DNA of 42,129 bases from Planctomycetaceae bacterium (lineage in GTDB: Bacteria > Planctomycetota > Phycisphaerae > Phycisphaerales > SM1A02). Numbering within the stretch: the first letter of the stretch is position 1; every line of letters starts with the position of its first letter. Where the stretch lies: contig CANETX010000003.1 of assembly GCA_947441435.1 (NCBI GenBank), forward strand, positions 1 through 42,129, in the 5' to 3' direction. Positions 2,882 to 42,129 of the stretch are shown piece after piece. Below the pieces are notes generated by a model, which worked only from the letters and a program-made list of their open reading frames with translations, was not told the DNA's origin and made no database searches. The position numbers and the translations under genes are program-made.

Positions 2882-3634
2882 CTAGCGCGTCGCCGCGACC
2901 TTCTTCATGATGAACAGGTAGTTGAATCCGCGGAGGAAGAAGTTGCCCTCCTCCGCGGCCTTCTTGAAGTTCCCCTTCGCGAGCGTCGCGTTGTTGCGGA
3001 CGACGCTGATGACGTCGATGGGGCGAAAGTGCCCTCGCAGCCGCGCGAAGAGTTCAAAGCCGATTGGCATGAATGTGCCATTGCCCGCTCCCTTCTCGCC
3101 GCGGCGCCGTCGCCAGGAGTCGCTGACATAGAGCGCGACGTACCGGCGGTCCTTGAGGACGCGGTGCATCTCTGAAATCACACGGTCCATCGCCGCGTAG
3201 TAGGCGCGACCGCCATCTTCCCCCGAGGCATCGAGTTTCCCAATGCAGCGCGAGTCATCCGAGTACTCGACATGCGTCGAGTACGGCGGATCGACGAACA
3301 CGAAGTCAACCGAGGCATCTTCAAGAGGCAGTTTTCGCGCGTCAGCGGACTGGATGTCAGGCCGCGCGGGAACGAGATCGAAGCCGATCCCGGATCGACC
3401 GAGGTCGGTGCACACATCGAGCGTGGTCCCACTGCCGCACATCGGGTCGAGCACCTTGTCCCCCTCGCGCGTGTACCGCTGCAGCAACTGCCAGATGATC
3501 CACGATGGGGTCGCGCCGATGTAGTCCTTGTCCCCCTGCATTCGCGACCCGCTCGGCGAGTCGTAATGCTGGCTCGGGTACTCCCAGAGCGTGGTCGTCT
3601 GAAGGCGAAGCGGAGGGCGCTTCAGGAACGCCAC
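2882..3634 (-). CDS. Site-specific DNA methyltransferase (N6-A/N4-C type), orphan
   Basis: Motif I-like LDPMCGSGTTLDVCTDLGRSGIGFDL and motif IV DPPYSTHVEYS; no restriction endonuclease nearby. Confidence 0.8.
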   Translation of the reverse strand: MAFLKRPPLRLQTTTLWEYPSQHYDSPSGSRMQGDKDYIGATPSWIIWQLLQRYTREGDKVLDPMCGSGTTLDVCTDLGRSGIGFDLVPARPDIQSADARKLPLEDASVDFVFVDPPYSTHVEYSDDSRCIGKLDASGEDGGRAYYAAMDRVISEMHRVLKDRRYVALYVSDSWRRRRGEKGAGNGTFMPIGFELFARLRGHFRPIDVISVVRNNATLAKGNFKKAAEEGNFFLRGFNYLFIMKKVAATR

Positions 3635-4168: not shown

Positions 4169-4930
4169 TCACCCCACGCGCATGTCGATGTCGATGTCGC
4201 CCCCCTGCGGGAGTCGCGACGCAAGCAGCGCCTTGAACTTCACTGGATCGACTCGCGAGGGGATCTTGCCGATCACCACGACTTGGCGCTTGTGCTCGTA
4301 GTCGTCGGCGCTCGCGACTCGGCCGCCGTGCTGCCGAATCACCGCCAACAGCGCGAGAAGCGTCGCCTTCGAGTCGGCGCGTGTGGGGAGTTTGAGTCGA
4401 ATTCGGTAGCCGACGCTCGAGTCGAGCCAGAAGATCAGGAGCCACGCGAACAGGGTGAAGAACACCCCCATCGCCAGCTGACCGAGGCCGCAGGCGAGGC
4501 CGATCACCACGACCATGATGGCCTTGCCGGTCGTCTTGGGATTCTCGAGGATCGTGCGGAAGCGAATGAGACCGCCGATGCCGAAGACGACGAGGGCCAT
4601 GGTCGGCTCGACCCGAACGAGTTCCGAAACGGTTGCGCCGACGAGGGCGAGAACGATCAGCGTGTTGCGCCGTTCGAGGTCCTCGACGGGATCGCCCTTG
4701 CCGGAGCGCCTCGGATGCCATGCGATTGCGAAGCCGCAGCCCGCCGCCACAACAAGCCCGAGAAGCAGCGAGAAGATGAACCACGGATTCGTGAAGTGGC
4801 TCAATGAGTCTGCAATTCCGTGCGCCCCGAGTTTCGCCGATGCCTGCTGCTGGTCGAAGAGCGGGATGAGCGACGCCGTCTTGTCCCCGAGTGCGACGAT
4901 CGGCGTCCATGCGCAAAGTGGTTCCAACAT
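4169..4930 (-). CDS. MgtC/DUF4956-like membrane protein
   Basis: Several TM segments; ERRNTLIVLALVGATVSELVRVEPTMALVVFGIGGLIRFRTILENPKTTGKAIMVVVIGLACGLGQ resembles the R-F-R-T/GLACG core of this group. Confidence 0.6.
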   Translation of the reverse strand: MLEPLCAWTPIVALGDKTASLIPLFDQQQASAKLGAHGIADSLSHFTNPWFIFSLLLGLVVAAGCGFAIAWHPRRSGKGDPVEDLERRNTLIVLALVGATVSELVRVEPTMALVVFGIGGLIRFRTILENPKTTGKAIMVVVIGLACGLGQLAMGVFFTLFAWLLIFWLDSSVGYRIRLKLPTRADSKATLLALLAVIRQHGGRVASADDYEHKRQVVVIGKIPSRVDPVKFKALLASRLPQGGDIDIDMRVG

Positions 4931-4955
4931 CGTGGCGCTATTCTCACATGAGTCC

Positions 4956-6161
4956 ATGAATTCGTCCAACCCACGCGGACTCCCGCTACTTCTCCTCGTG
5001 CTCGGGATCCTCGGCGCTCTCGCCGGCTGCCCTCCGCTCGACGAATCCAACAAGAAGACGCCCCCGAGCGAGGCGCACTTTGATTCGGGAGCTCATCAGC
5101 GGCAACATGGCAAGGACGCAAAGTCGGAAAGCGACCCGGCGTCCGCCCCCGCAGCCGCCGACGCCAAGCGCGAGCACGGCCACGACCTCCCCAAGACCGC
5201 GACCCACTGGTACTGCACCATGCACGGAAAACCGGCGGGGAACAGCGTCCACGGCATCGACGAAAACGGAACGGTGCTTGGGGCCATCCTCGAAGCCGTC
5301 CCCGAATCCGCCGGGGGCAATGCCAAGGGAGTGCGCGGCATGCTCCATCTCGGCGAGCACGGACTCCTTGTCGTCAGCGCGAACCTCGCGGACACGCGAC
5401 TCATTCGCTACGGCCCGCCGGCGTCCGATGGAACCCTCCCGTTCGTGAGCCTCTTTGCGCAGAAGGCGCTCAAGAACCCCGACCTCGTGCACTCGTACGC
5501 CCTCGCGGTCGGCGCCGATGGCACGGTCTACGCCTCGAATCAGGACACGAACACGGTCAGCGCGTACGCGGGAATCGGCACCGCACAACCGGGCGCTCCT
5601 CTCGATGTTCCCAAGGAGATCGCGGGGCTCGGGATTCCCGCTGGCACCATCGTGCCGAGCCGCGTCGTCTCTCCCCAAGGCATCACCGAAATCCGTGGGA
5701 TCGCCATCGGCGCTGATGGTCTCCTCTATGTCTGCGATCGAGGCGCCGCCCAGGTCGTCGTCTTCGATCCGAAGACTGGACTTCGTCTGCGTGTCCTCGC
5801 GGACGAGTCGCATGGACTTGTCCACCCGATTCAGCTGCTGTTCGCACCCGATGGTCACACGGTCTACTTGACGGACAACGGGATGCCGGGGATTTTTCGG
5901 ATCGACACGGCGACGGGCGCGATCATCCTCTTTGCGAACCGTTCGACCGGCTGCCCCGAACTTCCGAGTTCACTCGCGATGGACAAGGACCATCTCTATG
6001 TGGGCGACCGCAAGAAGCAGGAGATCCTTCGGTTCAAGCTCGCAACCGGCGAGCCTGATCACACCCCCTTCGCGCAACTCCCCGACGCTCCCGAGTTCAT
6101 GATTCCGGCGTCGCTGCTTCCGGCGATCCCTCAGTCCCCGAAGGCGAAGGCTGACGACTGA
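4956..6161 (+). CDS. Lipoprotein with NHL/SMP-30-like beta-propeller
   Basis: MNSSNPRGLPLLLLVLGILGALAGC lipobox; repeats such as GIAIGADGLLYVCDRGAAQVVVFDPKTG and LLFAPDGHTVYLTDNGMPGIFRIDTATG. Start chosen inside ORF 4515..6161. Confidence 0.8.
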   Translation: MNSSNPRGLPLLLLVLGILGALAGCPPLDESNKKTPPSEAHFDSGAHQRQHGKDAKSESDPASAPAAADAKREHGHDLPKTATHWYCTMHGKPAGNSVHGIDENGTVLGAILEAVPESAGGNAKGVRGMLHLGEHGLLVVSANLADTRLIRYGPPASDGTLPFVSLFAQKALKNPDLVHSYALAVGADGTVYASNQDTNTVSAYAGIGTAQPGAPLDVPKEIAGLGIPAGTIVPSRVVSPQGITEIRGIAIGADGLLYVCDRGAAQVVVFDPKTGLRLRVLADESHGLVHPIQLLFAPDGHTVYLTDNGMPGIFRIDTATGAIILFANRSTGCPELPSSLAMDKDHLYVGDRKKQEILRFKLATGEPDHTPFAQLPDAPEFMIPASLLPAIPQSPKAKADD

Positions 6162-6173
6162 CCCGCAGGTCGA
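6073..6173 (+). repeat. Direct repeat copy A (end of the lipoprotein gene)
   Basis: 6073-6123 is identical over 51 bp to 7890-7940; the next 50 bp align without gaps to 7941-7990 but are diverged. Confidence 0.95.
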
Positions 6174-6201
6174 GGGGGGAATCGGCTCCCCGCGAGACGG
6201 G

Positions 6202-6453
6202 TTGTTTGAGGTTGCTTGTGTCGCCACGGGCTACCGGCTTGGGCGACGGCGCGGAGATTCCCGGATGGTCGTGCCATACGATCCGACGCGAGTGGATGAG
6301 GCCAGCCTGCACTTCGATGACACCGCGCGCCGCACTCAGGCGCGCGATTTCGCAGTGACGACCCAGCCCGAGGGCGCGGGCTGCAAGGAGTGCGACCTCA
6401 GAATGATGTGCTACGCGGACGGGATCATTCGACGCCAGGCGGGTGTGGCGTGA
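6202..6453 (+). pseudogene. C-terminal fragment resembling an Fe-S PD-(D/E)XK nuclease/UvrD-type helicase
   Basis: Ends ...TQARDFAVTTQPEGAGCKECDLRMMCYADGIIRRQAGVA; CxxCx5C cluster typical of the C-terminus of RecB/AddB/Cas4-like nuclease domains. Stop overlaps the next start (GTGA). Confidence 0.5.
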
Positions 6454-7877
6454 AGGCCGCCGATCTGCGCATCGTGATCCAGGAAGGCGAGGGAACGACC
6501 CTCGAGTTCAAGCAGAGCCTTCCCGGATCCTTGGCCAGGGATCTCGTCGCAATGGCGAACACGATTGGAGGGCGGCTCTTGCTCGGCGTGCGAGACGACG
6601 GCACGGTCGTCGGCGTGAAGGACGCCAACAGCCTCCGCGCCCGCATCCAGGACATGGCCCGCAACTGCGACCCGCCGGTCACTGTGCGCGTCGAGCCAGT
6701 TGGCGATGTCTTGGTGATCCATGTTCGAGAGAGTGAGGCCAAGCCTGTGCAGTGCAGCGATGGTTTCTTCTGGCGACAGGGAGCGGCGACCCAGAAGCTC
6801 AGCCGAAAGGAGATCCGCGACTTCTTCCGGACCGAGGGGGCGGTCCGCTTCGACCTCGCCCCCTGCCCCCGCTTCCGCTACCCACAGGACTTCGACCGTG
6901 CGAAGTATGACGCGTGGCTGAAACTCTCCGGCATCGCTGGCAAGCCGCGCACCGAAGACGTGCTCGTGAACATCGAGGCGGCTGAACGCGCCGGAGGCAA
7001 GCTCCTGTTCCGCAACGCCGGCGTGCTCTTCTTCGCGAAGGATGTGCGGCACTTTTTCAACCAGGCCTATCTCACTTGTCTGCTCGCCAAGGGCACAGAC
7101 AAGGTCCACATCCTCGACCGCAAGGATTTCGATGGAGGTGTCGTGTCTGACATCGAGGAAGCCCTGCGGTTCGTCGAGCGCAATACCCGCACGGCCTATC
7201 GAATCGAGCGCCTCCAGCGCGAGAACATCCCCGAGTACCCAATGAAGGCGCTGCGCGAGGCGATCACCAACGCGGTGATGCACCGCGACTGGTTCATCGA
7301 GGGCGCCAATGTGTTCGTCGAGATCTACACCGACCGCATCGAGGTCGTGAGCCCGGGCGGGCTTCCCAAGGGGATGACGCTCGCCGATCTCGGGCGCAAG
7401 AGCGTTCGCCGGAACGCTCTCATCGCGGATCTCCTTCATCACATCGACTTCATCGAGAAGGCGGGCACGGGGATCAAGCGCATCCGCAATGCGGCGCGCG
7501 ATGGTGGCTACCCGCAGCCGGAGTGGGAAGCCAACGGGTTCGTCACAACGATGTTCCGCCCGAACCCCGAGGTCCGGATCCGGTCGGAGGACCAGCGGAC
7601 CGGACATGTCGCCACCCAAGTACCCGACAAGTACCCGCCAAGTACCCGCCAAGTCCTGATTGCCCTCGACACAACTCCCGAACCGCTGGCGCGCGCGGTC
7701 TTGCAGAAGGCTTCGGGGCTCAGCAACCGAGAGCACTTTGTCAGCGAGCACCTCAAACCCCTTGTTGCCGCTGGCCTGATCGAGATGACAATTCCTGACA
7801 AGCCGCGCAGCAGCAGACAGTGCTACCGCCTGACCGGGACCGGCCGCGAGTTCTTGCAGACCGTGAAGCCGAAATGA
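6450..7877 (+). CDS. AlbA_2 (Schlafen-type) domain ATP-binding protein/transcriptional regulator
   Basis: N-terminus IQEGEGTTLEFKQSLPG...NTIGGRLLLGVRDDGTVVGV plus GHKL-type ATPase-like segment ALREAITNAVMHRDW...IEVVSPGGLPKGMTLADL...EKAGTGIKRI. Confidence 0.85.
   Translation: MKAADLRIVIQEGEGTTLEFKQSLPGSLARDLVAMANTIGGRLLLGVRDDGTVVGVKDANSLRARIQDMARNCDPPVTVRVEPVGDVLVIHVRESEAKPVQCSDGFFWRQGAATQKLSRKEIRDFFRTEGAVRFDLAPCPRFRYPQDFDRAKYDAWLKLSGIAGKPRTEDVLVNIEAAERAGGKLLFRNAGVLFFAKDVRHFFNQAYLTCLLAKGTDKVHILDRKDFDGGVVSDIEEALRFVERNTRTAYRIERLQRENIPEYPMKALREAITNAVMHRDWFIEGANVFVEIYTDRIEVVSPGGLPKGMTLADLGRKSVRRNALIADLLHHIDFIEKAGTGIKRIRNAARDGGYPQPEWEANGFVTTMFRPNPEVRIRSEDQRTGHVATQVPDKYPPSTRQVLIALDTTPEPLARAVLQKASGLSNREHFVSEHLKPLVAAGLIEMTIPDKPRSSRQCYRLTGTGREFLQTVKPK
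7617..7649 (+). repeat. 11-bp tandem repeat, three units, inside the AlbA_2 gene
   Basis: caagtacccga caagtacccgc caagtacccgc. Confidence 0.9.
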
Positions 7878-7889
7878 GGGCGGGGCCCC

Positions 7890-7990
7890 CGCAACTCCCC
7901 GACGCTCCCGAGTTCATGATTCCGGCGTCGCTGCTTCCGGTGGCTCCCCTCTCCCCGAAGTCGAAGGCGGACGAGTAACCCGCAGGTCGA
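7890..7990 (+). repeat. Direct repeat copy B (overlaps the 3' end of the RlmK-like gene)
   Basis: See copy A; plus-strand translation gives QLPDAPEFMIPASLLPVAPLSPKSKADE*, an allele of the lipoprotein C-terminus. Confidence 0.95.
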
Positions 7991-8942
7991 GCGCTCCCGG
8001 GACATCCGCGCGGGCGACGAGATAGGCGCGGTGCGGCGTCTTTGAGTCGAAGTCCTCGGGGACCGTGTATTTCGTGATCTCCCTGAGCGCAATGCCCTCG
8101 GGCAACTGCGCTGACTCCGGCCGGAACGACCTCGAGTTCGTGCTGAACCAGATCTGACCCATCGGCGAGAGCCACGGCATCGTCATCGCCAGCAGCGCGA
8201 TCCAGTCGCGGTCCACCGAGAAACTTCCCGCGACCATCCGCTTGGAGTTCGAGAAGGTCGGCGGGTCGAGAACGATGATGTCATAGGACTCTCCCGCCGC
8301 AGGGCCCGCCTCCAGGAACTGCAGGCAGTCGGCCGACTCCAGTCGATGCGTCGGGCCCACCGCGAATCCGTTGAGCGCCAGGTTGCGGCTCGTCCACGCC
8401 TGATAGGTGTTGCTCATGTCGACCGTGAGCGTGGCGCTCGCCCCCCCAGCCGCGGCGTGCACCGTAAACGCTCCCGTGTACGCGAAGAGGTTCAGCACGC
8501 GCTTGCCCTGCGCGCGCTCGCGAATCATGGCGCGCGTCGTGCGGTGGTCGAGGAACAGTCCGGTGTCGAGGTAGTCCGAGAGGTTCACCTCGAACTTCAG
8601 GCCGTGCTCACTGACGACGCGCACAACCGAGTCGGTGCTCACCCGTTCGTACTGCGCGAGCCCGCGCTGGCGCTGACGCCGCTTGATGTACAGCCGCGCG
8701 TCGTCGATCTCAAGCCCCGCCTTGATCTGCGCGACGCTCAACTGCACGAACGCCTCCTCCGCCTCTTCGGTGTCATCGCGCGTCCGCGGGTGGAACCACG
8801 CCACGACATCCCCGTCGTACCAATCGATCACCAGCGGGTACTCCGGAATGTCCCGTTCGTACACACGGAAGCACGGCGCGTCGGTGCGGCGCGACCACTT
8901 CATCAGGTGACGCTTGCGTTTGGCGAGTCGGTGGTCGAGCAT
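7914..8942 (-). CDS. Class I SAM-dependent 23S rRNA methyltransferase, RlmK (RlmKL C-terminal)/RlmI family
   Basis: FRVYERDIPEYPLVIDWYDGDVVAWF, VNLSDYLDTGLFLDHRTTRAMI, NLFAYTGAFTVHAAAGGASATLTVDMS, DIIVLDPPTFSNSKRM. Confidence 0.88.
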   Translation of the reverse strand: MLDHRLAKRKRHLMKWSRRTDAPCFRVYERDIPEYPLVIDWYDGDVVAWFHPRTRDDTEEAEEAFVQLSVAQIKAGLEIDDARLYIKRRQRQRGLAQYERVSTDSVVRVVSEHGLKFEVNLSDYLDTGLFLDHRTTRAMIRERAQGKRVLNLFAYTGAFTVHAAAGGASATLTVDMSNTYQAWTSRNLALNGFAVGPTHRLESADCLQFLEAGPAAGESYDIIVLDPPTFSNSKRMVAGSFSVDRDWIALLAMTMPWLSPMGQIWFSTNSRSFRPESAQLPEGIALREITKYTVPEDFDSKTPHRAYLVARADVPGALDLRVTRPPSTSGRGEPPEAATPES

Positions 8943-19159: not shown

Positions 19160-20407
19160 CTAGAACTCCATAATGAGCTGCGTGGCTCCGTACCACTCCC
19201 CCTGGCCGACGCTGCCTGATTCATTCGTATGACTCACTTGGATCTTGAACGTGAACGAATCGTTGAGACGCATGCCGCCTCCCAGATCGATGCGCTGCAC
19301 GTTGTTGTCCCAGGTCTGGTTGCTCAGCTCCCCGTAGAACTGCGAATTCCAGCGCGCGGATAGCCACGCGTCCGTGGCAACATTGAACTTTCCTTCGACG
19401 AAGAAACTGAAGCTGTTGAGGTTGCCGACCGCTGGCTGGTCGAATGTGTTCCAGATGAACTCGGACCAGACCTCAAACCACTCATGCGTGTACGAGCCAT
19501 CGAGTCCCCAAGTCGTTTGCATGAAACTGCCGGGGTCGGTGATCGTGGTGCCCGGCCTCGCCACCGGATTCGACAGCAGGTAGCCGCCTCGGCTGAAACT
19601 TCCGCCGAAATTCCACCGAGGGTCTGGTCGGGCACCAACGCGAGACGTCACGGTCGGAGCGGCGAGATTGCGATCCCAGAACTGCCACTCGCTCGGGCGC
19701 GACGAGAGCGACGCATTCTTCACCTCGACCGCCCAGTCGAAGTTCGCCTGGTCCCATGCCGGAATCACGCCGAATGCGCTGAACCCGCTGGTGTAGGAGG
19801 GCCCCCAGATGATCGGATTCCAGCTTGGCACATTGTCCGCCTTGCCTTTCCTCCCCAATTGAACCGGCGACTTGGGGTTTGCGGGCACGGTTGTGCCGTC
19901 CCCGACCGACGTCATCCAGCCATAGGGCACCGGTGCGTCAATGAGCGGATTCTCGAACGAGAGGAACCGCCGGTTCCACTGGCCGAAGCATGTGCCGAAC
20001 TGCCCCGCACGCAGGCTCAGCAACCTGTTCTCAAAGGGACGCACCGTCACGAAGTATTCGTTGAGGATCATCTCCATCGACTCATCCGTCGGATCGAATC
20101 CGCGCGAGGCCATGGCGTACACCGTGAAGTCGAATGCCTTGCCGACCGTCGCGGTCCCCATCAGATTGATTGCGGGGGCATAGAGGACATTGGTTTCCGA
20201 CTGGAGGAAGTCCGGCGGTGGTTGCGTGTAGAACCAGATCGTCTGATCTATCCACGGGTCGATGCCGAGCGTCCACGATCCATCGGGATCGCCCGTCGTC
20301 AGCGAGTCGCCGACGTCCTGCATCGCTTGCGAGAGCGTGTCGAAGACCCCAAGGTCTTCCTCGGCCACCTGCCCGAGGCAACACGTGATGAGCATGGTCT
20401 CGATCAT
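19160..20407 (-). CDS. Outer-membrane beta-barrel/porin-like protein
   Basis: Aromatic-rich alternating pattern with terminal GEWYGATQLIMEF (C-terminal Phe). Confidence 0.55.
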   Translation of the reverse strand: MIETMLITCCLGQVAEEDLGVFDTLSQAMQDVGDSLTTGDPDGSWTLGIDPWIDQTIWFYTQPPPDFLQSETNVLYAPAINLMGTATVGKAFDFTVYAMASRGFDPTDESMEMILNEYFVTVRPFENRLLSLRAGQFGTCFGQWNRRFLSFENPLIDAPVPYGWMTSVGDGTTVPANPKSPVQLGRKGKADNVPSWNPIIWGPSYTSGFSAFGVIPAWDQANFDWAVEVKNASLSSRPSEWQFWDRNLAAPTVTSRVGARPDPRWNFGGSFSRGGYLLSNPVARPGTTITDPGSFMQTTWGLDGSYTHEWFEVWSEFIWNTFDQPAVGNLNSFSFFVEGKFNVATDAWLSARWNSQFYGELSNQTWDNNVQRIDLGGGMRLNDSFTFKIQVSHTNESGSVGQGEWYGATQLIMEF

Positions 20408-23048: not shown

Positions 23049-23798
23049 ATGTCTCGGGGCGTTCCACCGGTCGACCATTTCCCGTCCACGCATCGCACAT
23101 GGCTGGAGACGCAGATCGATGCGGGGCGCGAGGCGCGTGCCGCCGGCGACTCGGAGGCGCATCGCGAGGCGATTCGCACGCTCAGCCGTCATGTGATGGA
23201 GCGTTACCGCGAGCCGCTGCGCGCGTACATCCTTGGTTCGCGGTGGCGGAGTTTCGGCGACGCCGATGATCTCGTCGCGGGGTTCTTCGCGCGGCGGCTC
23301 GACTCGCTCGACTACATGGAGCGATGGCACGCGGTGGGGATTTCCCTGCGGCGGTGGCTGATGAACGGGATCCTGCTGGAGTTGCGCACGCTCGCGCGGG
23401 ATGCGCGGCGGCTCGCGCGCCGCGAGGGTGGGCCGCACGCGAGCGCCGACGCGGCGCAGCACGAGGGTTCGCATGAGCCCACGGCCGAGCGCGCGTTCGA
23501 CCGTGCGTGGGCCCGTGGGATTCTCGTCGAGGCGGCGGCGCAGGCGGCCGCAGAACTCACGGCGGAAGGTCGCGAGACGGCGTGGCGACTGTTCGAGCGG
23601 CATGTGCTCGACGGGGTCGAGTACGCGGCGGCGGCGGACGAACTTGGCGTTGCGCGCGGCGAGGCGAAGGCGATGAGTCGCATGGCGCAGTACCGATTGC
23701 GGCGGGCGATCGCTGCGGTCCTGCGCGACGATGGCGTCGCGGCGGCAGACCTCGAGCGCACGGTCGAGGATGTCTATGGCGCGGCGCTGGGAGATTGA
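23049..23798 (+). CDS. ECF-like RNA polymerase sigma factor
   Basis: RTLSRHVMERYREPLRAYILGSRWRSFGDADDLVAGFFARRL...; C-terminus ELGVARGEAKAMSRMAQYRLRRAI resembles the region 4 helix-turn-helix. Confidence 0.7.
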   Translation: MSRGVPPVDHFPSTHRTWLETQIDAGREARAAGDSEAHREAIRTLSRHVMERYREPLRAYILGSRWRSFGDADDLVAGFFARRLDSLDYMERWHAVGISLRRWLMNGILLELRTLARDARRLARREGGPHASADAAQHEGSHEPTAERAFDRAWARGILVEAAAQAAAELTAEGRETAWRLFERHVLDGVEYAAAADELGVARGEAKAMSRMAQYRLRRAIAAVLRDDGVAAADLERTVEDVYGAALGD

Positions 23799-23802
23799 CG
23801 AC
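23747..23802 (+). repeat. 56-bp direct repeat, left copy
   Basis: agacctcgagcgcacggtcgaggatgtctatggcgcggcgctgggagattgacgac, identical to 24562-24617. Confidence 0.97.
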
Positions 23803-23885
23803 GCGGGACCGCTCAGCGGCCAGTTTCCGGTTGTGGCTGAGTTTGTCCGCCAGAACCGGGCCGGTCCGCGATAACCTGCACTCGC

Positions 23886-24191
23886 GTGATCGATCTCGTC
23901 TCCACCAACCTGGACCGCATCCGTGCTGCGTGCGAACGGCACGGCGTTTCATTTTTGGAGTTGGTCGGATCAGCAGCGCGGGATGACTTCGATCCCAGCC
24001 GGAGTGACATCGATGTGCTCGTCGATTTTCCGGACGGGGCCACCGACCTGTTTGGTTCTTTCATGGGACTGCGCGAAGACCTCTCGGAGATACTGGGCCG
24101 CTCGGTGGATGTGATTACGGTCCGCGGCGTCCGCAATCCGCTCTTCTTGGAATCGCTGCGCCGCGGCGCCATTCGCCTCTATGCGGCGTGA
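23886..24191 (+). CDS. mntA: MntA-type nucleotidyltransferase antitoxin
   Basis: ELVGSAARDDFDPSRSDIDVLVDF (GS...DxD nucleotidyltransferase motif), 101 aa, directly upstream of HepT. Confidence 0.9.
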   Translation: MIDLVSTNLDRIRAACERHGVSFLELVGSAARDDFDPSRSDIDVLVDFPDGATDLFGSFMGLREDLSEILGRSVDVITVRGVRNPLFLESLRRGAIRLYAA

Positions 24192-24516
24192 ACCGCAGAC
24201 CATCCTGCGCGATGCCATCGCAGCGGGAGAGGACATAACCGGCATGCTCAGTGGGGTGACTCAAGCGCTCTTCCTAGCGGACCGCAAGACGCAACGCGCC
24301 ACAGAGCGCTGCTTCGAAATCATCGGCGAGGCGCTCGCGCGACTTGCCCGAGACTTCCCCTCGATCGCCGATCGGATCCCCGACCACCGCAGGGTGATCG
24401 ACTTCCGCAACCTGCTGGCGCACGGCTACGACATAGTCGATCCTCGGTTGGTGTTCGATCTGGCCACGACGCGCCTCCCCCGACTGCTCGCGGCCCTCCG
24501 TGAGGCCGCCCGGTAG
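24181..24516 (+). CDS. hepT: HepT-like (DUF86) ribonuclease toxin
   Basis: FRNLLAHGYDIVDP contains Rx4HxY; overlaps mntA by 11 nt. Confidence 0.9.
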   Translation: MRREPQTILRDAIAAGEDITGMLSGVTQALFLADRKTQRATERCFEIIGEALARLARDFPSIADRIPDHRRVIDFRNLLAHGYDIVDPRLVFDLATTRLPRLLAALREAAR

Positions 24517-24561
24517 CCCCTGGGGCGCATGCGCCATGCACGATGTTGGAGTACCAACTGA

Positions 24562-24617
24562 AGACCTCGAGCGCACGGTCGAGGATGTCTATGGCGCGGC
24601 GCTGGGAGATTGACGAC
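24562..24617 (+). repeat. 56-bp direct repeat, right copy (contains start codon of downstream gene)
   Basis: Perfect match to 23747-23802; ATG at 24585. Confidence 0.97.
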
Positions 24618-25877
24618 CAGGTCGCGCGGCGGCTGGCTCGCGCGAACGCGGCCCGAGTGAACGCGGCTCGGTCGAATGCCGATGGTTCGGCGAGGGGGTT
24701 GCCGTTCTGGCGCCGAGGGGGGTTCCGGCTCGGACTCGTGGCAGTAATTCTGATTGGCGTTTGGGCCGTGTGGGGCCACGAGGGCTTTCTTTCTTCGCAG
24801 GGTTCTGTCCGTGCGGGGGTGTTGCCCGTCGGGGACTCTGCCAGTCCCGGAGAAAGTCCCATGTCCAGCCTGTCACTTGAAAACTCTCGCCTCGCGACCG
24901 TGGCCGCATCTGCGGCCGTCGCCTTCGCCGCAGTCTCCTACTCCCCCGAGATCGACGCGAGTTTCGCGCAGGGAACGGGGAGTTGCGAAGGTGACATCAA
25001 CGGGGATGGCGCGATCAATGGGATCGACTTGTCGTATGTGCTCGTCAACTGGGGGACATGCAATCCGCCGCCACCGCCCCTGCCGAGGGCGACGACGCTC
25101 GAGGCGCTGCCGGATCCCGCGGTCGTGACGGATGAGGCGCTGCGCAATGCCATCATCGCCGCGCATCTCCCGTGGCGCGTCCGCGACAACGCGAGCAACA
25201 TCGAGATGCTGCTGGTGCCGCCGGGGACGTTCATGATGGGGTGTAGTGCGTCGACGCCGGCCGGGGGGTGCAGTCCCGACGAGAGCCCTGTTCATCAGGT
25301 GACGCTCACAAGCGCGTTCTATCTCGGAAAGACAGAAGTGACACAGGCCCAGTGGGTAGCCGAGATGGGGAGCAATCCGTCGGAATTCTCGACAGCCGCC
25401 GACAGTCCGTCGCGGCCAGCTGAACATGTGTCGTGGGACAACATTCAGGGGTTCCTATCGCAGAACTCGCTGCGGCTGCCGACCGAGGCGGAGTGGGAGT
25501 ACGCCTATCGCGCCGGGACTAACACCGCGTTCCACAACGGCAGCAGCAGCGACGCGACGCTGGGAACCATCGCCTGGTTCTCCGCAAACTCGTCGAGTCA
25601 GACCCACACAGTGGGCGGCAAGCTCGCCAACAGGGTTGGTTTGCACGACATGTCCGGCAATGTGTGGGAGTGGGTGAGCGATTGGTACGGGGGATACACC
25701 GCAAGCAGCGTGGTCGATCCCACAGGGCCGACTTCTGGCTCCAAGGGAGTCGTGCGCGGCGGTGGATGGAACATCGACTCCACACCGCAACGCTGCCGTG
25801 CGTCGAGTCGCCCCAACGACGTGCCTCGGTCGTCGGTCCGGCCTGATTTCGGCTTCCGCGTCGCGCGCAATCCGTAG
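24585..25877 (+). CDS. Dockerin-like plus SUMF1/formylglycine-generating-enzyme family secreted protein, with in-frame TM leader
   Basis: CEGDINGDGAINGIDLSYVLVNWG; then MLLVPPGTFMMGC...PVHQVTLTSAFYLGKTEVTQAQW...LPTEAEWEYAYRAGT...GLHDMSGNVWEWVSDWYG...RVARNP. Alternative start ATG 24861. Confidence 0.85.
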   Translation: MSMARRWEIDDQVARRLARANAARVNAARSNADGSARGLPFWRRGGFRLGLVAVILIGVWAVWGHEGFLSSQGSVRAGVLPVGDSASPGESPMSSLSLENSRLATVAASAAVAFAAVSYSPEIDASFAQGTGSCEGDINGDGAINGIDLSYVLVNWGTCNPPPPPLPRATTLEALPDPAVVTDEALRNAIIAAHLPWRVRDNASNIEMLLVPPGTFMMGCSASTPAGGCSPDESPVHQVTLTSAFYLGKTEVTQAQWVAEMGSNPSEFSTAADSPSRPAEHVSWDNIQGFLSQNSLRLPTEAEWEYAYRAGTNTAFHNGSSSDATLGTIAWFSANSSSQTHTVGGKLANRVGLHDMSGNVWEWVSDWYGGYTASSVVDPTGPTSGSKGVVRGGGWNIDSTPQRCRASSRPNDVPRSSVRPDFGFRVARNP

Positions 25878-25894
25878 CGCGCTGCGCCAACCGA

Positions 25895-25954
25895 CCCCCC
25901 GGTTGCGGGCACTTCGAGCCCGCTAGCGGTCGCTTTCTGCCCGTAACCGGGGGG
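25895..25954. repeat. Interspersed palindrome family 1, copy 1
   Basis: ccccccggttgcgggca-N26-tgcccgtaaccgggggg, just after the SUMF1 gene stop. Confidence 0.9.
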
Positions 25955-26011
25955 TACGGGGCGCGCGCGACCCGGAGGCCGCGAGCCGCACCCCGGGTAC
26001 CGTGGCGATCC

Positions 26012-29181: not shown

Positions 29182-29206
29182 CGGGTGCAGCGCTCGCCCC
29201 TCATCT

Positions 29207-29257
29207 CGTTCTTTGGAAGGATTGTGCCCTCCGAGGGCGCGTTTCTTCCAAAGAACG
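29207..29257. repeat. Interspersed palindrome family 2, copy A
   Basis: cgttctttggaa-ggattgt-gccct-ccg-agggc-gcgtttc-ttccaaagaacg; 46/51 identical to 31865-31915. Confidence 0.9.
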
Positions 29258-29261
29258 CGCG

Positions 29262-29617
29262 GCACGCGGTTAGAGGCCGCGCTGGCTCCAGAGGCCACCG
29301 CCGAAGCGCACTTCGAACGCGCGTGGTGTCGCGAGGTGCTTGAGGCTGTCTACGCCACAACTGCGGCGGCCCTTCGCGCGGCGGGGCGCGAGCGGCAGTG
29401 GGACGTGTTTCGTGAGCACATCATCAAGGGGAGGCCCTACGCGGCGATCGGTGCCGAGATGGGAATGATCCCGCAGCAGTGCGCCGATGCGACGCGGGCA
29501 GTCTCGGGGATACTCCGCACGGAACTCGTCAAGGTGCTCACTGAAGATGGCGTCGCGCCCGATGAGCAGGCAGTCGAGGACATCATCCGAGGGGTGATCG
29601 ATGGACCGGCTGACTGA
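29262..29617 (+). pseudogene. C-terminal fragment of an ECF-like sigma factor paralogue
   Basis: EATAEAHFERAWCREVLEAVYATTAAALRAAGRERQWDVFREHIIKGRPYAAIGAEMG... parallels EPTAERAFDRAWARGILVEAAAQAAAELTAEGRETAWRLFERHVLDGVEYAAAADELG of 23049-23798. Confidence 0.7.
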
Positions 29618-29837
29618 CGCGGACGCGCGTGCGCTTGCGGCGGGGCTGCGCGCGCAGTGGCGGACCCGCGCGGGGGGCGGCACCCCGCCGACGAGGTCAG
29701 CCCTCTTGCTCGTAGGCGCAACTCGGCTCGCGGGGTTCGCCCTCGCCACCAGCAGCCCAAGAATTCCACAGGTCGAATCCCATGAACGCCTCCCCAGTGG
29801 CTCCCTCTCAGGGGTCCTCAACACTCGGGAGACAGAC

Positions 29838-30668
29838 ATGAACACCACCCAATCACTCACATCTGTGGCCACCACCCTCGCAATCGCCTGCGCCGCCACG
29901 ACAGCGGACGGTCAGACCGCCGCCGTCCAGTGGCCCGTCGCCGACGGCGGCAACGGACATTGGTATGAACTGCGAGTTCGGCCAGCCGGGATCACTTGGA
30001 CCGAGGCCGAAGCCGAAACTCCGATTGGCAGTCACTTGGTGGCCGCCGAGACCGGTCCCGAGAAGGCGTTTGTCCTGCAGAACTTCACTCCTGCCAACTA
30101 CCCCACGGCATTTCACCCGCAGGGCGGACCTGGCTGTAGTGCGATGGGACCCTGGATTGGCGCCTATCAGCAACCCGACTCCCCGGAACCAAGCGGCGGA
30201 TGGCGGTGGGTCACTGGAGAACCCATGGATCCAACTGACACCTATTGCTGCAACAACGACTGTCAGGGCCCGGAGACCTATCTGCACCTCTACGAGTATT
30301 GCAGCTACCCGATGGGGTGGAATGACCTCCCCAATGACGGTGACCTCTGCGCCGCTGCCCCCTATGGATTCCTCGTCGAGTGGGAGGCCGACTGCAACTC
30401 CGACGGCATCGTCGACTACGGGCAGATCCTTACGGGCCAACTGATTGATGCGAACGCGAACGGCATCCCCGACACTTGCGAACGCATCCCCTGCCCCGGC
30501 GACATCTCCGGCAACGGTGCGGTTGACGGAGTCGATATCACGGTGCTGCTCGGCCTCTGGGGCACCGATGGCAGCGGCGGCGAGTTCTTCGCCGATGTCA
30601 CCAAACTTGGCATCGTGAACGGCGCCGACCTGACGGTGGTGCTCGGCGGCTGGGGCGCCTGCCCCTGA
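29838..30668 (+). CDS. Secreted C-type-lectin-like protein with dockerin-like tail
   Basis: GHWYELRVRPAGITWTEAEAETPIGSHLVAAETGPEKAFV...WIGAYQQ...GWRWVTGEPMD...WNDLPND; DCNSDGIVDYGQILTGQLIDANANGIPDTCE; GDISGNGAVDGVDITVLLGLWG. In-frame upstream start at 29601. Confidence 0.8.
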   Translation: MNTTQSLTSVATTLAIACAATTADGQTAAVQWPVADGGNGHWYELRVRPAGITWTEAEAETPIGSHLVAAETGPEKAFVLQNFTPANYPTAFHPQGGPGCSAMGPWIGAYQQPDSPEPSGGWRWVTGEPMDPTDTYCCNNDCQGPETYLHLYEYCSYPMGWNDLPNDGDLCAAAPYGFLVEWEADCNSDGIVDYGQILTGQLIDANANGIPDTCERIPCPGDISGNGAVDGVDITVLLGLWGTDGSGGEFFADVTKLGIVNGADLTVVLGGWGACP

Positions 30669-30718
30669 CCGATCTACAACCGCGTCTTGCGCACTCCGTA
30701 GCGAAGCGCGCTCAGCGA

Positions 30719-30778
30719 CCCCCCGGTTACGGGCAATTCGATCCCGCTAGAGGGCGCTATCTGCCCGTAACCGTGGGG
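30719..30778. repeat. Interspersed palindrome family 1, copy 2
   Basis: ccccccggttacgggca-N26-tgcccgtaaccgtgggg, just after the lectin-like gene stop. Confidence 0.9.
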
Positions 30779-30808
30779 TAGCTGCCGCCGGGGAGAACCA
30801 GCTACGGG

Positions 30809-31786
30809 TCACCGCCCTTGGACGTGCTTGCGCGCCTTCTCGGCCGCCTTGGTCCCGGGATACGCGCGCGCGACTTCCTTCAGCGCGGCGATCGCCGCAT
30901 CGCGCTTGCCCTGCAAGGCGAGCTCCTTCGCCGCCCGGTAGAGGGACGCCGCGCGCGCCTCACGATCAACGCTCGGCAGCGAATCCGGATCGTCCTCGAC
31001 GTCGATGTCCGCCGGCGCACCAATCTCCAACGGAACCGGCGGCGGTTCGTGATCCTGCGGTGCAGGCGTCACGCTCTTCGGCCTCCACACCGGTGGCGCG
31101 ATCGGCGCCTTCCTGCGAGCTGAACTTGATGGCTCCCCCCCGCCGCTCCCGCCACCACCGCTGCCGGCGCCACCACCGCCGCCCCCACCACGCGCACCAG
31201 CCGCGCTCCTGCGCATCAACTCCCGGACGACCTCATACACGCGCTCCGCCTGCTTGGCATCAACGTCGATGCTCTCGATCACCGACCGCTTGAACTGGAT
31301 GCTGTACGCGGCGCCCGCGATCTCCGCCACCTGGATCGTCAGGAGGCGATTGAGGAAGTAGTAGAGGAGCGCCACTGCGGCCGCAAGGAGCGCTCCCGCT
31401 ACGAATCCCATGAACATGTCACCGATTCCCGGCAGCGATAGCGCATCCGAGCCGACGCCGCTGAACATCGCCGTGAGGCATCCGCTCGATGGCATCAGCA
31501 TCAGGATGAAGATGATCGCCGCGGACTTCCACGGCTTGAAGTACCCCCACGACACCGACGACACGCAGTCGTACGCAATGAACACGAGGTTCGATCCACT
31601 GAGCGAGGTGGAGCGAAAGGTGATCCCCTCGTGCGTGGCATTGAACGAAGTCGTGGGGTCGATCCCACACAACGCCAGCAGCCACGCGATCAGCCCGCTC
31701 TGCCGCCCCGCGATGTCGACGAACCCCTCGTCATCCCCTGTCTCGAGGTCCGAGATCCGCCAGCGCTTCAGGACGAGTTTGGCCAT
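30809..31786 (-). CDS. Hypothetical membrane protein with TPR-like C-terminus
   Basis: MAKLVLKRWRISDLETGDDEGFVDIAGRQSGLIAWLLALCGIDPTTSF...; C-terminal LYRAAKELALQGKRDAAIAALKEVARAYPGTKAAEKARK. Confidence 0.65.
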   Translation of the reverse strand: MAKLVLKRWRISDLETGDDEGFVDIAGRQSGLIAWLLALCGIDPTTSFNATHEGITFRSTSLSGSNLVFIAYDCVSSVSWGYFKPWKSAAIIFILMLMPSSGCLTAMFSGVGSDALSLPGIGDMFMGFVAGALLAAAVALLYYFLNRLLTIQVAEIAGAAYSIQFKRSVIESIDVDAKQAERVYEVVRELMRRSAAGARGGGGGGGAGSGGGGSGGGEPSSSARRKAPIAPPVWRPKSVTPAPQDHEPPPVPLEIGAPADIDVEDDPDSLPSVDREARAASLYRAAKELALQGKRDAAIAALKEVARAYPGTKAAEKARKHVQGR

Positions 31787-31864
31787 GGGTGCGGGGCGCT
31801 CGCGGCGGCGCAACGATACCGCTCCGCAAAGCCGCGCACTCAGCTCGCTCGCGTGGCGCGCTCC

Positions 31865-31915
31865 CGTTCTTTGGAAGGATTGTGCCCTAGCAGGGCGCGA
31901 TTCGTCCAAAGAACG
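31865..31915. repeat. Interspersed palindrome family 2, copy B
   Basis: cgttctttgga-aggattgt-gccct-agc-agggc-gcgattcg-tccaaagaacg. Confidence 0.9.
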
Positions 31916-31964
31916 AGGGGATCGAACTTGCGCGCGGCAAACCTAGCGCTATTTTGCTCTCACG

Positions 31965-39700: not shown

Positions 39701-42129
39701 ATGATCCGACACCCAATGCGAACTAACACGGGATTCCGCATCGTTCTTGGCTCGCTCGTCGCACTGCTTGTGGCTTCCCCAGCCATGGGTCAGGCCCAGC
39801 GCGTTGCCACATCGTCCGACACGAACGCCACTACTCCGGCCACGAAGTCGAGTTCGAGCGGAAGCAAGTCCGCGGGAGTGAAGAACTCCAAGGCGACCCC
39901 AGGGTCCAACAGTGCGAGCAAGAGCGCTGCCCCTGCGTCCGCCGCTTCGCGCTCCGCTTCCGGCTCATCCGATGCGGCGAAGACAGAGCCCGCAGCTCCG
40001 GCTGCTCCGGCCACCAAGCCAGCGCCCGCTGCTCCGGCGCCGACCACTACGACCACGAAGGCCGCGCCTGCAGCGCCCGCCGCAACGACCACGAAGGCTG
40101 CACCCGCAGCGCCTGCGGCGACAACCACCAAGCCAGCGCCCGCTGCTCCGGCTCCGACCACCACGACCACGAAGGCCGCGCCTGCAGCGCCCGCCGCAAC
40201 GACCACGAAGGCCGCACCCGCCGCTCCCGCTGCAACGACCACGAAGGCCGCGCCTGCAGCGCCCGCCGCAACGACCACGAAGGCTGCACCTGCTGCACCT
40301 GCTGCGCCCGCTGCTCCGGCTCCGACCACCACGACCACGAAGGCCGCGCCTGCAGCGCCCGCTGCAACGACCACGAAGGCTGCACCTGCTGCGCCCGCTG
40401 CTCCGGCTCCGACCACCACGACCACGAAGGCCGCACCTGCTGCGCCCGCCACAACGACCACGAAGGCCGCACCCGCTGCGCCCGAATCTGGCAAGACCGG
40501 CGGCGCAACGTCATCGAAGACTGCCACCAGTCTCCCCACTCCCCCGGCCCGACCGGCCGAGTCGAAGACCGTGACGGGGACGACTCAGGCAGGCAAGCCT
40601 GACAGCACGCGGACGGCGACCATTGACCGACCCTCGACCACCTCTGTCGTAGCGGACGCCAAGGGTGTCGCGACGACCGGTCCTGCTGCGAAGCCAGCCC
40701 CCGCGCAACCCAAGCCTGTCGATGTCGCGGTCGCTCCCGAGACAGCCAAGCCTGTGACGGATGCGCAAATCGCCAAGGGCATTGCTGACTTCACCTCTGG
40801 CACGACGTCCGCGGAGGAACTCACGCGGCTCCTCGCAGGCGGTGGTGGCGCCCCGGTGACAGAGCCCCCGGCTCAACCCATCACGCCTCCTGACCAACCT
40901 CCCGCTCCACCCGTCGTCTCCTTCGAGACGATTCGGCACGCGCTGCCGGCAGTCACGGAGACCGGTCGGTTCAAGGCATGGACGTGGCATGCGGTCGACC
41001 GAAACCAAACGGACTTCCAGGTCACGACGGTGTGGTTCGGACGACCAGGTGGCTGGGTCGAGAGTTCTCCGGTCCGCGCCGCAGAGCAACTCAATGCCCT
41101 CCCCCCGGGTCAGCGAGTCATGCTCCTCTGGGACATGACCACCGATATTGTCGGGAATCCGGCTGACGACTTGCTTCCTGCCCCTGGGCAAGTGGCAACG
41201 GCGCGAATCTTGAGCCCGTGGATCGACAACGCGACAACCATCGTGCGGGACCGGATGATCGGGTTCATGAACGCCTTCGCTGCCGCGGGCGGTCAGGTCG
41301 ACGCGATTCTCGTCGACAACGAGACCGACTTCCGGTGGGGCAATCAGTTCGGCTCACCCGATCAGGTGCTGGCGATCGAAGCTGATCCTCGCTTCCAGGC
41401 ACTTGCCAGCGAACTCGGATTTAACGACCTTGACCAAATCCAGGGACTGAACGAGCAGTACCAGCGCTGGAACGCGGTCATGTCGAGGCACTTTGATGCC
41501 GCCCTGCAGTTTGCGGTCTACGAACCGATCAAGGCCAAGTTCCCCAACTGCGTTGTGAGTAATTACGAGTGCTTCCAAGTTCTGCCTGACCGCTCGACCC
41601 CGTGGTGCACCGGCACGCCGGACACTCGGTACTCCGATGGATTCGGCACCCACGACACGCACTGCTATTACGGACTGATCTCGGCGAATCTCGCCACCAA
41701 GAAACTCGATGCCCAGAATCCGATCGGTCAGGATCCATTCGCGGGGTTCCGCCTCCAGATTCACCGCTGGCGCGCGACCGACTTCGGCTCGCCTCGCCCG
41801 ATGCAGGCGTGGATCTCGCCGAAGCACAACCACCCGTCCCTGTATGACCCGACCGTTGCGCTGACCCTGAACGGCAGCCCGTACTACGACGAGACGTTGC
41901 TGCACCTCGGTGCCGGCGGGTGCGATACGTTCCTCTACTGGAACCCTAGCGCCTACAACGAAACCATGATTCCCGCCGAGTGGAACCGGATGGACGATCA
42001 GTTGACGGTCGATGCGTGCCTCCGGGAACTCAGCGAGATCTACGGGCAGGCTCCCGGCGCAACGATCCCACTCGAGGGACCCGGTTGGGGTGATCGCGTG
42101 ATCGCTACAGGCCGCGCTGTCGCCGATCG
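39701..42129 (+). CDS. Large secreted protein with Ala/Pro/Thr/Lys-rich linker and unknown C-terminal (possibly glycosidase-like) domain; runs off window
   Basis: SD aaggag then MIRHPMRTNTGFRIVLGSLVALLVASPAMGQA; low-complexity linker; C-terminal ...AAGGQVDAILVDNETDFRWGNQ... Open through 42129, so absent from the ORF track. Confidence 0.8.
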   Translation, partial: MIRHPMRTNTGFRIVLGSLVALLVASPAMGQAQRVATSSDTNATTPATKSSSSGSKSAGVKNSKATPGSNSASKSAAPASAASRSASGSSDAAKTEPAAPAAPATKPAPAAPAPTTTTTKAAPAAPAATTTKAAPAAPAATTTKPAPAAPAPTTTTTKAAPAAPAATTTKAAPAAPAATTTKAAPAAPAATTTKAAPAAPAAPAAPAPTTTTTKAAPAAPAATTTKAAPAAPAAPAPTTTTTKAAPAAPATTTTKAAPAAPESGKTGGATSSKTATSLPTPPARPAESKTVTGTTQAGKPDSTRTATIDRPSTTSVVADAKGVATTGPAAKPAPAQPKPVDVAVAPETAKPVTDAQIAKGIADFTSGTTSAEELTRLLAGGGGAPVTEPPAQPITPPDQPPAPPVVSFETIRHALPAVTETGRFKAWTWHAVDRNQTDFQVTTVWFGRPGGWVESSPVRAAEQLNALPPGQRVMLLWDMTTDIVGNPADDLLPAPGQVATARILSPWIDNATTIVRDRMIGFMNAFAAAGGQVDAILVDNETDFRWGNQFGSPDQVLAIEADPRFQALASELGFNDLDQIQGLNEQYQRWNAVMSRHFDAALQFAVYEPIKAKFPNCVVSNYECFQVLPDRSTPWCTGTPDTRYSDGFGTHDTHCYYGLISANLATKKLDAQNPIGQDPFAGFRLQIHRWRATDFGSPRPMQAWISPKHNHPSLYDPTVALTLNGSPYYDETLLHLGAGGCDTFLYWNPSAYNETMIPAEWNRMDDQLTVDACLRELSEIYGQAPGATIPLEGPGWGDRVIATGRAVAD
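39991..40485 (+). repeat. Imperfect tandem repeat encoding (AAPAAPA[PA]TTTTK)n, 36-nt base unit
   Basis: Repeated gccgcgcctgcagcgcccgccgcaacgaccacgaag and variants. Confidence 0.9.

Follow-up and report, generated by a model that had tools for sequence, protein, structure and literature searches.

Restriction-modification (RM) systems insert with long target duplications of variable length, and no mobile element is linked to them in the accounts given in PMC3874152 (a review) and PMC3031569, which cite Nobusato et al. 2000 (Gene 259:99) and Furuta et al. 2010 (NAR 38:2428), and in PMC1643837. A further precedent are the HEPN-MNT modules recently inserted in Deinococcus radiodurans and Thermus thermophilus HB8 (Makarova et al. 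2009, PMC2701414). The pertinent passages of that paper describe a clean presence or absence inside otherwise syntenic operons, and in these passages neither a target duplication nor a mechanism is mentioned. We here report on a toxin-antitoxin (TA) module of the same family, MNT/HEPT, in a stretch of 42,129 nucleotides from a Planctomycetaceae bacterium (assembly GCA_947441435.1, contig CANETX010000003.1, positions 1 to 42,129). This stretch is called the window, and coordinates without a contig refer to it. The module, a type VII MntA/HepT pair, sits where a sigma-like gene meets the gene downstream. The locus presents a filled site, matched by two empty orthologous sites in relatives, with intact neighbours, intact TA motifs and no recombinase in the insert. 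It is best read as an insertion with a long target duplication, the behaviour known for RM systems and here shown for MNT/HEPT. Full-text literature searches, with the terms tried, yielded no report of a long target duplication for MNT/HEPT.

With the RM insertions, as far as these accounts go, the locus shares an addictive two-gene module without a known linked mobile element, a variable duplication in the order of 100 bp and relatives with empty alleles. What characterizes long target duplications was found: a direct repeat of tens to ~100 bp, a single copy of it in the empty allele, and no linked transposase or integrase. Unlike in the RM systems so described, the cargo here is MNT/HEPT, AlbA_2 or SoFic, and the duplication takes in the terminal 3' part of a gene or tRNA, the copies of which have usually diverged as orthologues do. 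The islands at tRNA genes or icd and the cis-mobilizable elements (CIME) are also flanked by direct repeats of a gene 3' end, complete the upstream gene and lack an integrase of their own. The present inserts differ from them in being far smaller (~0.8 kb), in comprising a single operon and in having many unrelated targets. The cognate integrase that a CIME should have in the element or in the genome was not found, yet one may have gone undetected, as the genome is 83% complete. Illegitimate recombination assisted by homology, as outlined in the relevant part of PMC2884548, resembles our case in that a short homologous anchor on one side is combined with non-homologous joining on the other and foreign DNA is added. 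Here, however, the anchor is duplicated instead of replaced.

The duplicated junction and its insert

The upstream gene (23049-23798, plus strand) encodes a sigma-70-like extracytoplasmic function (ECF) protein of 249 amino acids. It is intact, and its 3' end is the duplicated target. The name "sigma" rests on an earlier note on this DNA and on the operon context, not on a family match: the protein has no match in Pfam or NCBIfam. A scan of genome contigs with this protein returned one distant planctomycete locus only. The exact 56-bp direct repeat pointed out in the note occurs precisely twice in the window, at 23747-23802 and 24562-24617, and encloses the 759-bp insert that it had delimited (23803-24561, plus strand). 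The bases bordering the two copies mismatch on both sides (C/A before, G/C after). A repeat of this kind cannot be of chance origin.

The left copy indeed encodes the C-terminus of the sigma-like protein; it consists of the final 52 bp of the gene plus 4 bp, and the reading frame ends ...DLERTVEDVYGAALGD* at 23798. The right copy contains the predicted ATG (24585) of the downstream gene, although ATG 24591, preceded by GAGG at a spacing of 6 nt, is the better start. It provides this gene with its ribosome-binding site and start codon. The gene encodes a dockerin/FGE-sulfatase-domain protein of 430 amino acids (24585-25877, plus strand; PF03781, 3.3e-44), with an orthologue in the relative G012. 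Both neighbours are intact, and joining 23802 to 24618 yields two whole, overlapping genes, so that the note was right in calling the insertion clean and the overlap restorable. The sigma-like gene and the dockerin/FGE-sulfatase gene were originally partners in a translational overlap.

The duplication had been described as perfect. This holds for the 56 bp but not for the full unit. On the 5' side the similarity extends by another 25 bp with 15/25 identity in the sigma frame (HDVGVPTE versus RDDGVAAA), a value reached by 0.13% of random pairs of 25-mers from the same region. The duplicated unit thus measures 81 bp, of which 71 are identical (left copy 23722-23802; right copy, with 25 bp diverged and 56 bp identical, 24537-24617; both plus strand). 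Its diverged 5' part implies more than a plain, perfect copying of the sequence resident at the site.

The inverted repeat CCTCGA-8-TCGAGG in the 56-mer was dismissed as a recombinase core. Judged by eye, arms of this kind arise by chance not infrequently where DNA is rich in GC, and no common core is shared by the further repeats described below. A DNA transposon would be expected to leave a duplication of 2-14 bp, not 56-81 bp, and the ends of the insert are not paired by an inverted repeat.

The insert holds two genes only, and no transposase, integrase or terminal inverted repeat was detected in its 759 bp. The first gene, with a GTG start, encodes the predicted antitoxin, an MntA-type minimal nucleotidyltransferase (23886-24191, plus strand; PF01909, 5.6e-12; PADLOC PDC-S09, 9.7e-28). 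The second encodes the predicted toxin, a HepT-type HEPN RNase (24181-24516, plus strand; PF01934, 1.7e-17). The genes overlap by 11 bp, and the adjacent PF01909 and PF01934 domains both score above the Pfam cut-offs. The defining motifs of the AMPylating type VII pair are GSX10DXD in MntA and RX4HXY in HepT (PMC7641770). The GSX10DXD-type motif (G28, S29...D41, D43) is invariant across nine aligned MntA sequences, and RX4HXY (R76/H81/Y83) across ten aligned HepT sequences. Judged by its residues, the pair is complete, with both catalytic motifs intact. The NCBIfam models for MntA (1.3e-8) and HepT (1.7e-7) score 34.6 and 31.2 bits, below the cut-off of 60, which places the pair in the broad family but outside the curated equivalog set. 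In a structure search MntA weakly matched 1wot; for HepT there was no solved structure.

As the note had anticipated, relatives with an uninterrupted overlap exist. Two genomes of the same genus, G012 (contig 58) and G013 (contig 97), have a single copy and no insert, and the sigma stop lies inside the next gene. Their sigma-like orthologues are full-length and 66% identical; the downstream genes are orthologous as well (53% and 40% identity, in two segments). An assembly duplication, against which the note had warned, is unlikely: 12 contig pairs of the window's genome overlap at their ends by exactly 149 bp, from which it follows that the final assembly k-mer far exceeds 56 bp and spans the repeat.

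In G012 and G013 a different MNT/HEPT pair, with a HepT 34% identical, lies directly upstream of the same sigma gene, and in G012 the pair near the sigma-like/dockerin operon has an IS3-type element as its neighbour. On contig 58 of the window's own genome (4298-7559) another pair, distinct from the window's, is found between two sigma-like/dockerin operons. It looks as if such operons were a hot spot for MNT/HEPT pairs. In yet another genome (G177, contig 207) two pairs, 55-72% identical, stand in tandem, and the second belongs to the closest relatives of the window's pair.

Repeat-flanked inserts in the genome and in the family

The draft genome was compared with itself over 125 contigs (1.49 Mb of 2.06 Mb). 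Multi-copy palindromic repeats, recognized by copy number, protein repeats and paralogous genes were removed before counting. What remained were five low-copy direct repeats around single-gene inserts in 1.49 Mb. Four of the five inserts carry TA or defence cargo (MNT/HEPT twice, Schlafen-AlbA_2 and SoFic), and in all four the site is a 3' end, be it of a gene or of a tRNA. Only about ten HEPT, Fic and AlbA_2 genes were found genome-wide, an enrichment to be read with the qualification that these families were chosen after the inserts had been seen.

The Schlafen-AlbA_2 insert follows an NHL-propeller gene (4515-6161), the 3' end of which is duplicated. Between the left copy (6073-6174) and the right copy (7890-7991) of a 102-bp repeat lies a gene for an SLFN_AlbA_2/HATPase_c_4/Fic-like_C protein (6390-7877; all on the plus strand). 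The copies agree at 91 of 102 positions, the first 51 bp being identical and the rest matching at 40/51. The right copy keeps frame and stop, while residues differ (PVAPLSPKSKADE versus PAIPQSPKAKADD). The second MNT/HEPT pair follows a ROK kinase gene in the region 6633-20469 of contig 21, where the ROK 3' end recurs as a 97-bp repeat (90/97). Another 11 kb away a second ROK 3' fragment (19546-19881, 83% identical over 336 bp) accompanies a degenerate HEPT/MNT, and the region is possibly a nested or accreted island. On contig 33 (1698-3152) the SoFic gene stands between an intact tRNA-Gly (3080-3152, minus strand) and a 43-bp copy of the tRNA 3' end (42/43); no integrase was found at this insert. 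The fifth insert, on contig 5 (11509-12690), is an alpha/beta-hydrolase gene; 59 bp from upstream of rpsU recur with it (52/59), and a paralogue lies 1 kb away.

The multi-copy palindromic repeats, possibly terminators or elements resembling cassettes or repetitive extragenic palindromic (REP) sequences, measure ~50-70 bp, belong to several families and often bracket a single gene in pairs. One family, AACAGGTGA...TCACCTGTT, has up to ~40 matches; others are CGGGCG...CGCCCGTTTC, CCCCCGGTT..., GAGGCCTTCGG... and CGTTCTTTGGAAG.... They occur on contigs 14, 15, 18, 20, 26, 27, 30, 66, 70 and 74 and in the window at 25894-25955 and 29204-31920. The window further contains a tandem coding repeat rich in Ala, Pro, Lys and Thr (40011-40480), with GCGCCCGCTGCTCCGGCTCCGACC-like units and repeats of up to 59 bp.

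In the taxonomic family 45 MNT/HEPT loci with full flanks were surveyed, a score of 20 or more being counted as a flanking repeat. Such repeats were present at 7 of the 45 loci, whereas permutation of the flanks gave one among 360 pairs. In the own genome 38 of 3000 random windows (1.3%) had a repeat, which against 6/45 corresponds to a Fisher p of 3e-5. Six of the seven repeat-flanked loci, the sigma-like locus of the window and the ROK kinase locus (90/97) included, are gene 3' ends. Among the targets are isocitrate dehydrogenase (icd, 71/81), aconitase (57/61), the succinate dehydrogenase flavoprotein (sdhA, 30/33) and a gene of unnamed kind with a repeat of ~114 bp. Left uncounted were the repeats at two loci (L192 and L043), being short and not gene ends, and a tandem duplication at a third (L047) that takes in the MNT gene itself. 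At an AlbA_2 locus in the genome of a relative, 33 bp of an intact tRNA-Arg lie on either side.

Not all genes share in the effect, since Fic and sigma loci of the survey lack flanking repeats: the exact-repeat screen found none at 30 Fic and 20 sigma loci, and the scored screen none at 23 Fic and 18 sigma loci with full flanks. The same architecture recurs at unrelated 3' gene ends, both in the own genome and in relatives. The window insertion is no isolated curiosity but belongs to a class.

A proposed crossover at a gene end and the competing explanations

The differences between the copies are instructive. In all six protein-gene cases that were aligned the copies differ, the frame is kept, and so is the stop where it is visible. 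Third codon positions take 22 of the 41 coding differences (p=0.006). By this pattern the copies look, as expected, like two orthologous gene ends of different lineages, not like a fresh duplication or a decaying pseudogene. Capture of a fragment at a staggered break or by non-homologous end joining (NHEJ) was considered less likely: it would yield identical copies, yet the differences fall mainly at third codon positions, and no Ku was detected in the draft genome. The block of perfect identity lies on the 3' side at the sigma-like locus, on the 5' side at the AlbA_2 insert (6073) and centrally in the ROK case. A varying position is what one would predict if a resident gene end and a foreign one had recombined in a single crossover. 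In the four cases of the own genome the identical blocks measure 29-56 bp, which is around or above the RecA threshold, quoted as roughly 30 bp in the part of PMC2884548 concerned.

We therefore consider it probable, if far from certain, that a stand-alone type VII MntA/HepT module inserted at the junction of the sigma-like and the downstream gene with a long target duplication, and that it was integrated by crossover. The incoming DNA would have carried, beside the module, some 30-110 bp of the 3' end of the same gene from another lineage. A single crossover within the stretch of perfect identity would then integrate this DNA, as it would a circle, and leave a hybrid copy on each side, of which one would complete the upstream gene and the other would give the downstream gene its start. 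Such a crossover, at a gene-end tag brought in with the module, is plausible, yet unproven. Ordinarily the repeats on either side would promote exact loss of the module. Cells losing it would, however, be poisoned by residual toxin, and insertions would persist mainly with addictive or defensive cargo. Retention by addiction is what we infer from these considerations.

Several observations weigh against this view. The four pairs most similar to the window's, with HepT 71-74% identical, lie in other contexts without detectable repeats, which means that the gene-end tag does not stay with the module permanently. The module can switch its target, so that new targets demand a non-homologous step, which homology does not explain. 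Phage records and viral contigs contained no relatives of the window's HepT or of MNT/HEPT, and neither an excised circle nor a donor sequence was seen. Among the inserts between low-copy repeats, the one on contig 5 alone carries neither a toxin nor a defence gene but an ordinary alpha/beta-hydrolase. Also, the genome is an incomplete draft.

Of the competing explanations, site-specific integration survives best, unlikely though we deem it. The repeats would be attL and attR of very small islands that are not autonomous; tyrosine integrases encoded by phages or integrative and conjugative elements (ICE), with the 3' ends of genes and tRNAs as their targets, would mobilize these islands in trans. 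The 3' ends of tRNA-Gly, tRNA-Arg and icd are classical integrase targets. All three are among the targets observed here, and the upstream gene receives a different 3' end that completes it, just as at attL. The draft genome, however, encodes only two tyrosine recombinases, both on other contigs, and one of them reads like XerC/D. There are, moreover, eight or more targets without an obvious shared core, each of which would need its own integrase, and the inserts leave no room for other functions.

Less probable still, islands once integrated may have decayed to a TA module that is lethal if lost, and hence undeletable, between attL and attR. This would account for the type of cargo, the 3' gene-end targets and the missing integrase, and the ROK fragment with its degenerate HEPT/MNT, 11 kb off on contig 21, fits such a course. 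Yet most inserts are tight, ~0.8-0.9 kb for MNT/HEPT, and on most sides the extra DNA amounts to less than 100 bp. Contig 21 aside, the self-comparison of the genome brought up no low-copy repeats at larger spacings with a partly decayed island between them.

Even less credit is due to a local rearrangement, in which tandem sigma/lectin-type operons with MNT/HEPT between them would have lost the first of the downstream genes along with the bulk of the second sigma gene, the 3' end of the latter being left on the right. Contig 58 of the own genome shows exactly such a tandem arrangement, and the diverged 25 bp of the right copy read as a sigma C-terminus. This fails to explain, however, why 56 bp should be perfectly identical and why single-copy genes and tRNAs show such a structure too, and the empty orthologous sites have a single operon junction. 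An assembly artefact or a strain chimera might be suspected in a short-contig draft, but is hardly credible in view of the assembly overlap length of 149 bp and the recurrence of the structure across independently assembled genomes.

Meaning for toxin-antitoxin and defence genes

Recombinase-free movement of chromosomal TA modules is a long-standing gap. The 3'-end signature around other toxin and defence genes suggests a recombinase-free route into genomes. Tentatively, and with more doubt than confidence, one may go further and regard TA and single-gene defence modules as a minimal mobile class that does without a recombinase. Its members would carry a short tag from the 3' end of a host gene, be excised as small circles by recombination between the flanking repeats, re-enter the same gene end of another species by a single crossover and be kept there by addiction. 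With a filled site, two empty sites and parallel cases at hand, entry by a single crossover at a gene end becomes testable, and so does the question whether addiction keeps repeat-flanked insertions from being lost. The findings tie TA, Schlafen-AlbA_2 and Fic genes to a behaviour that has been described for RM systems.
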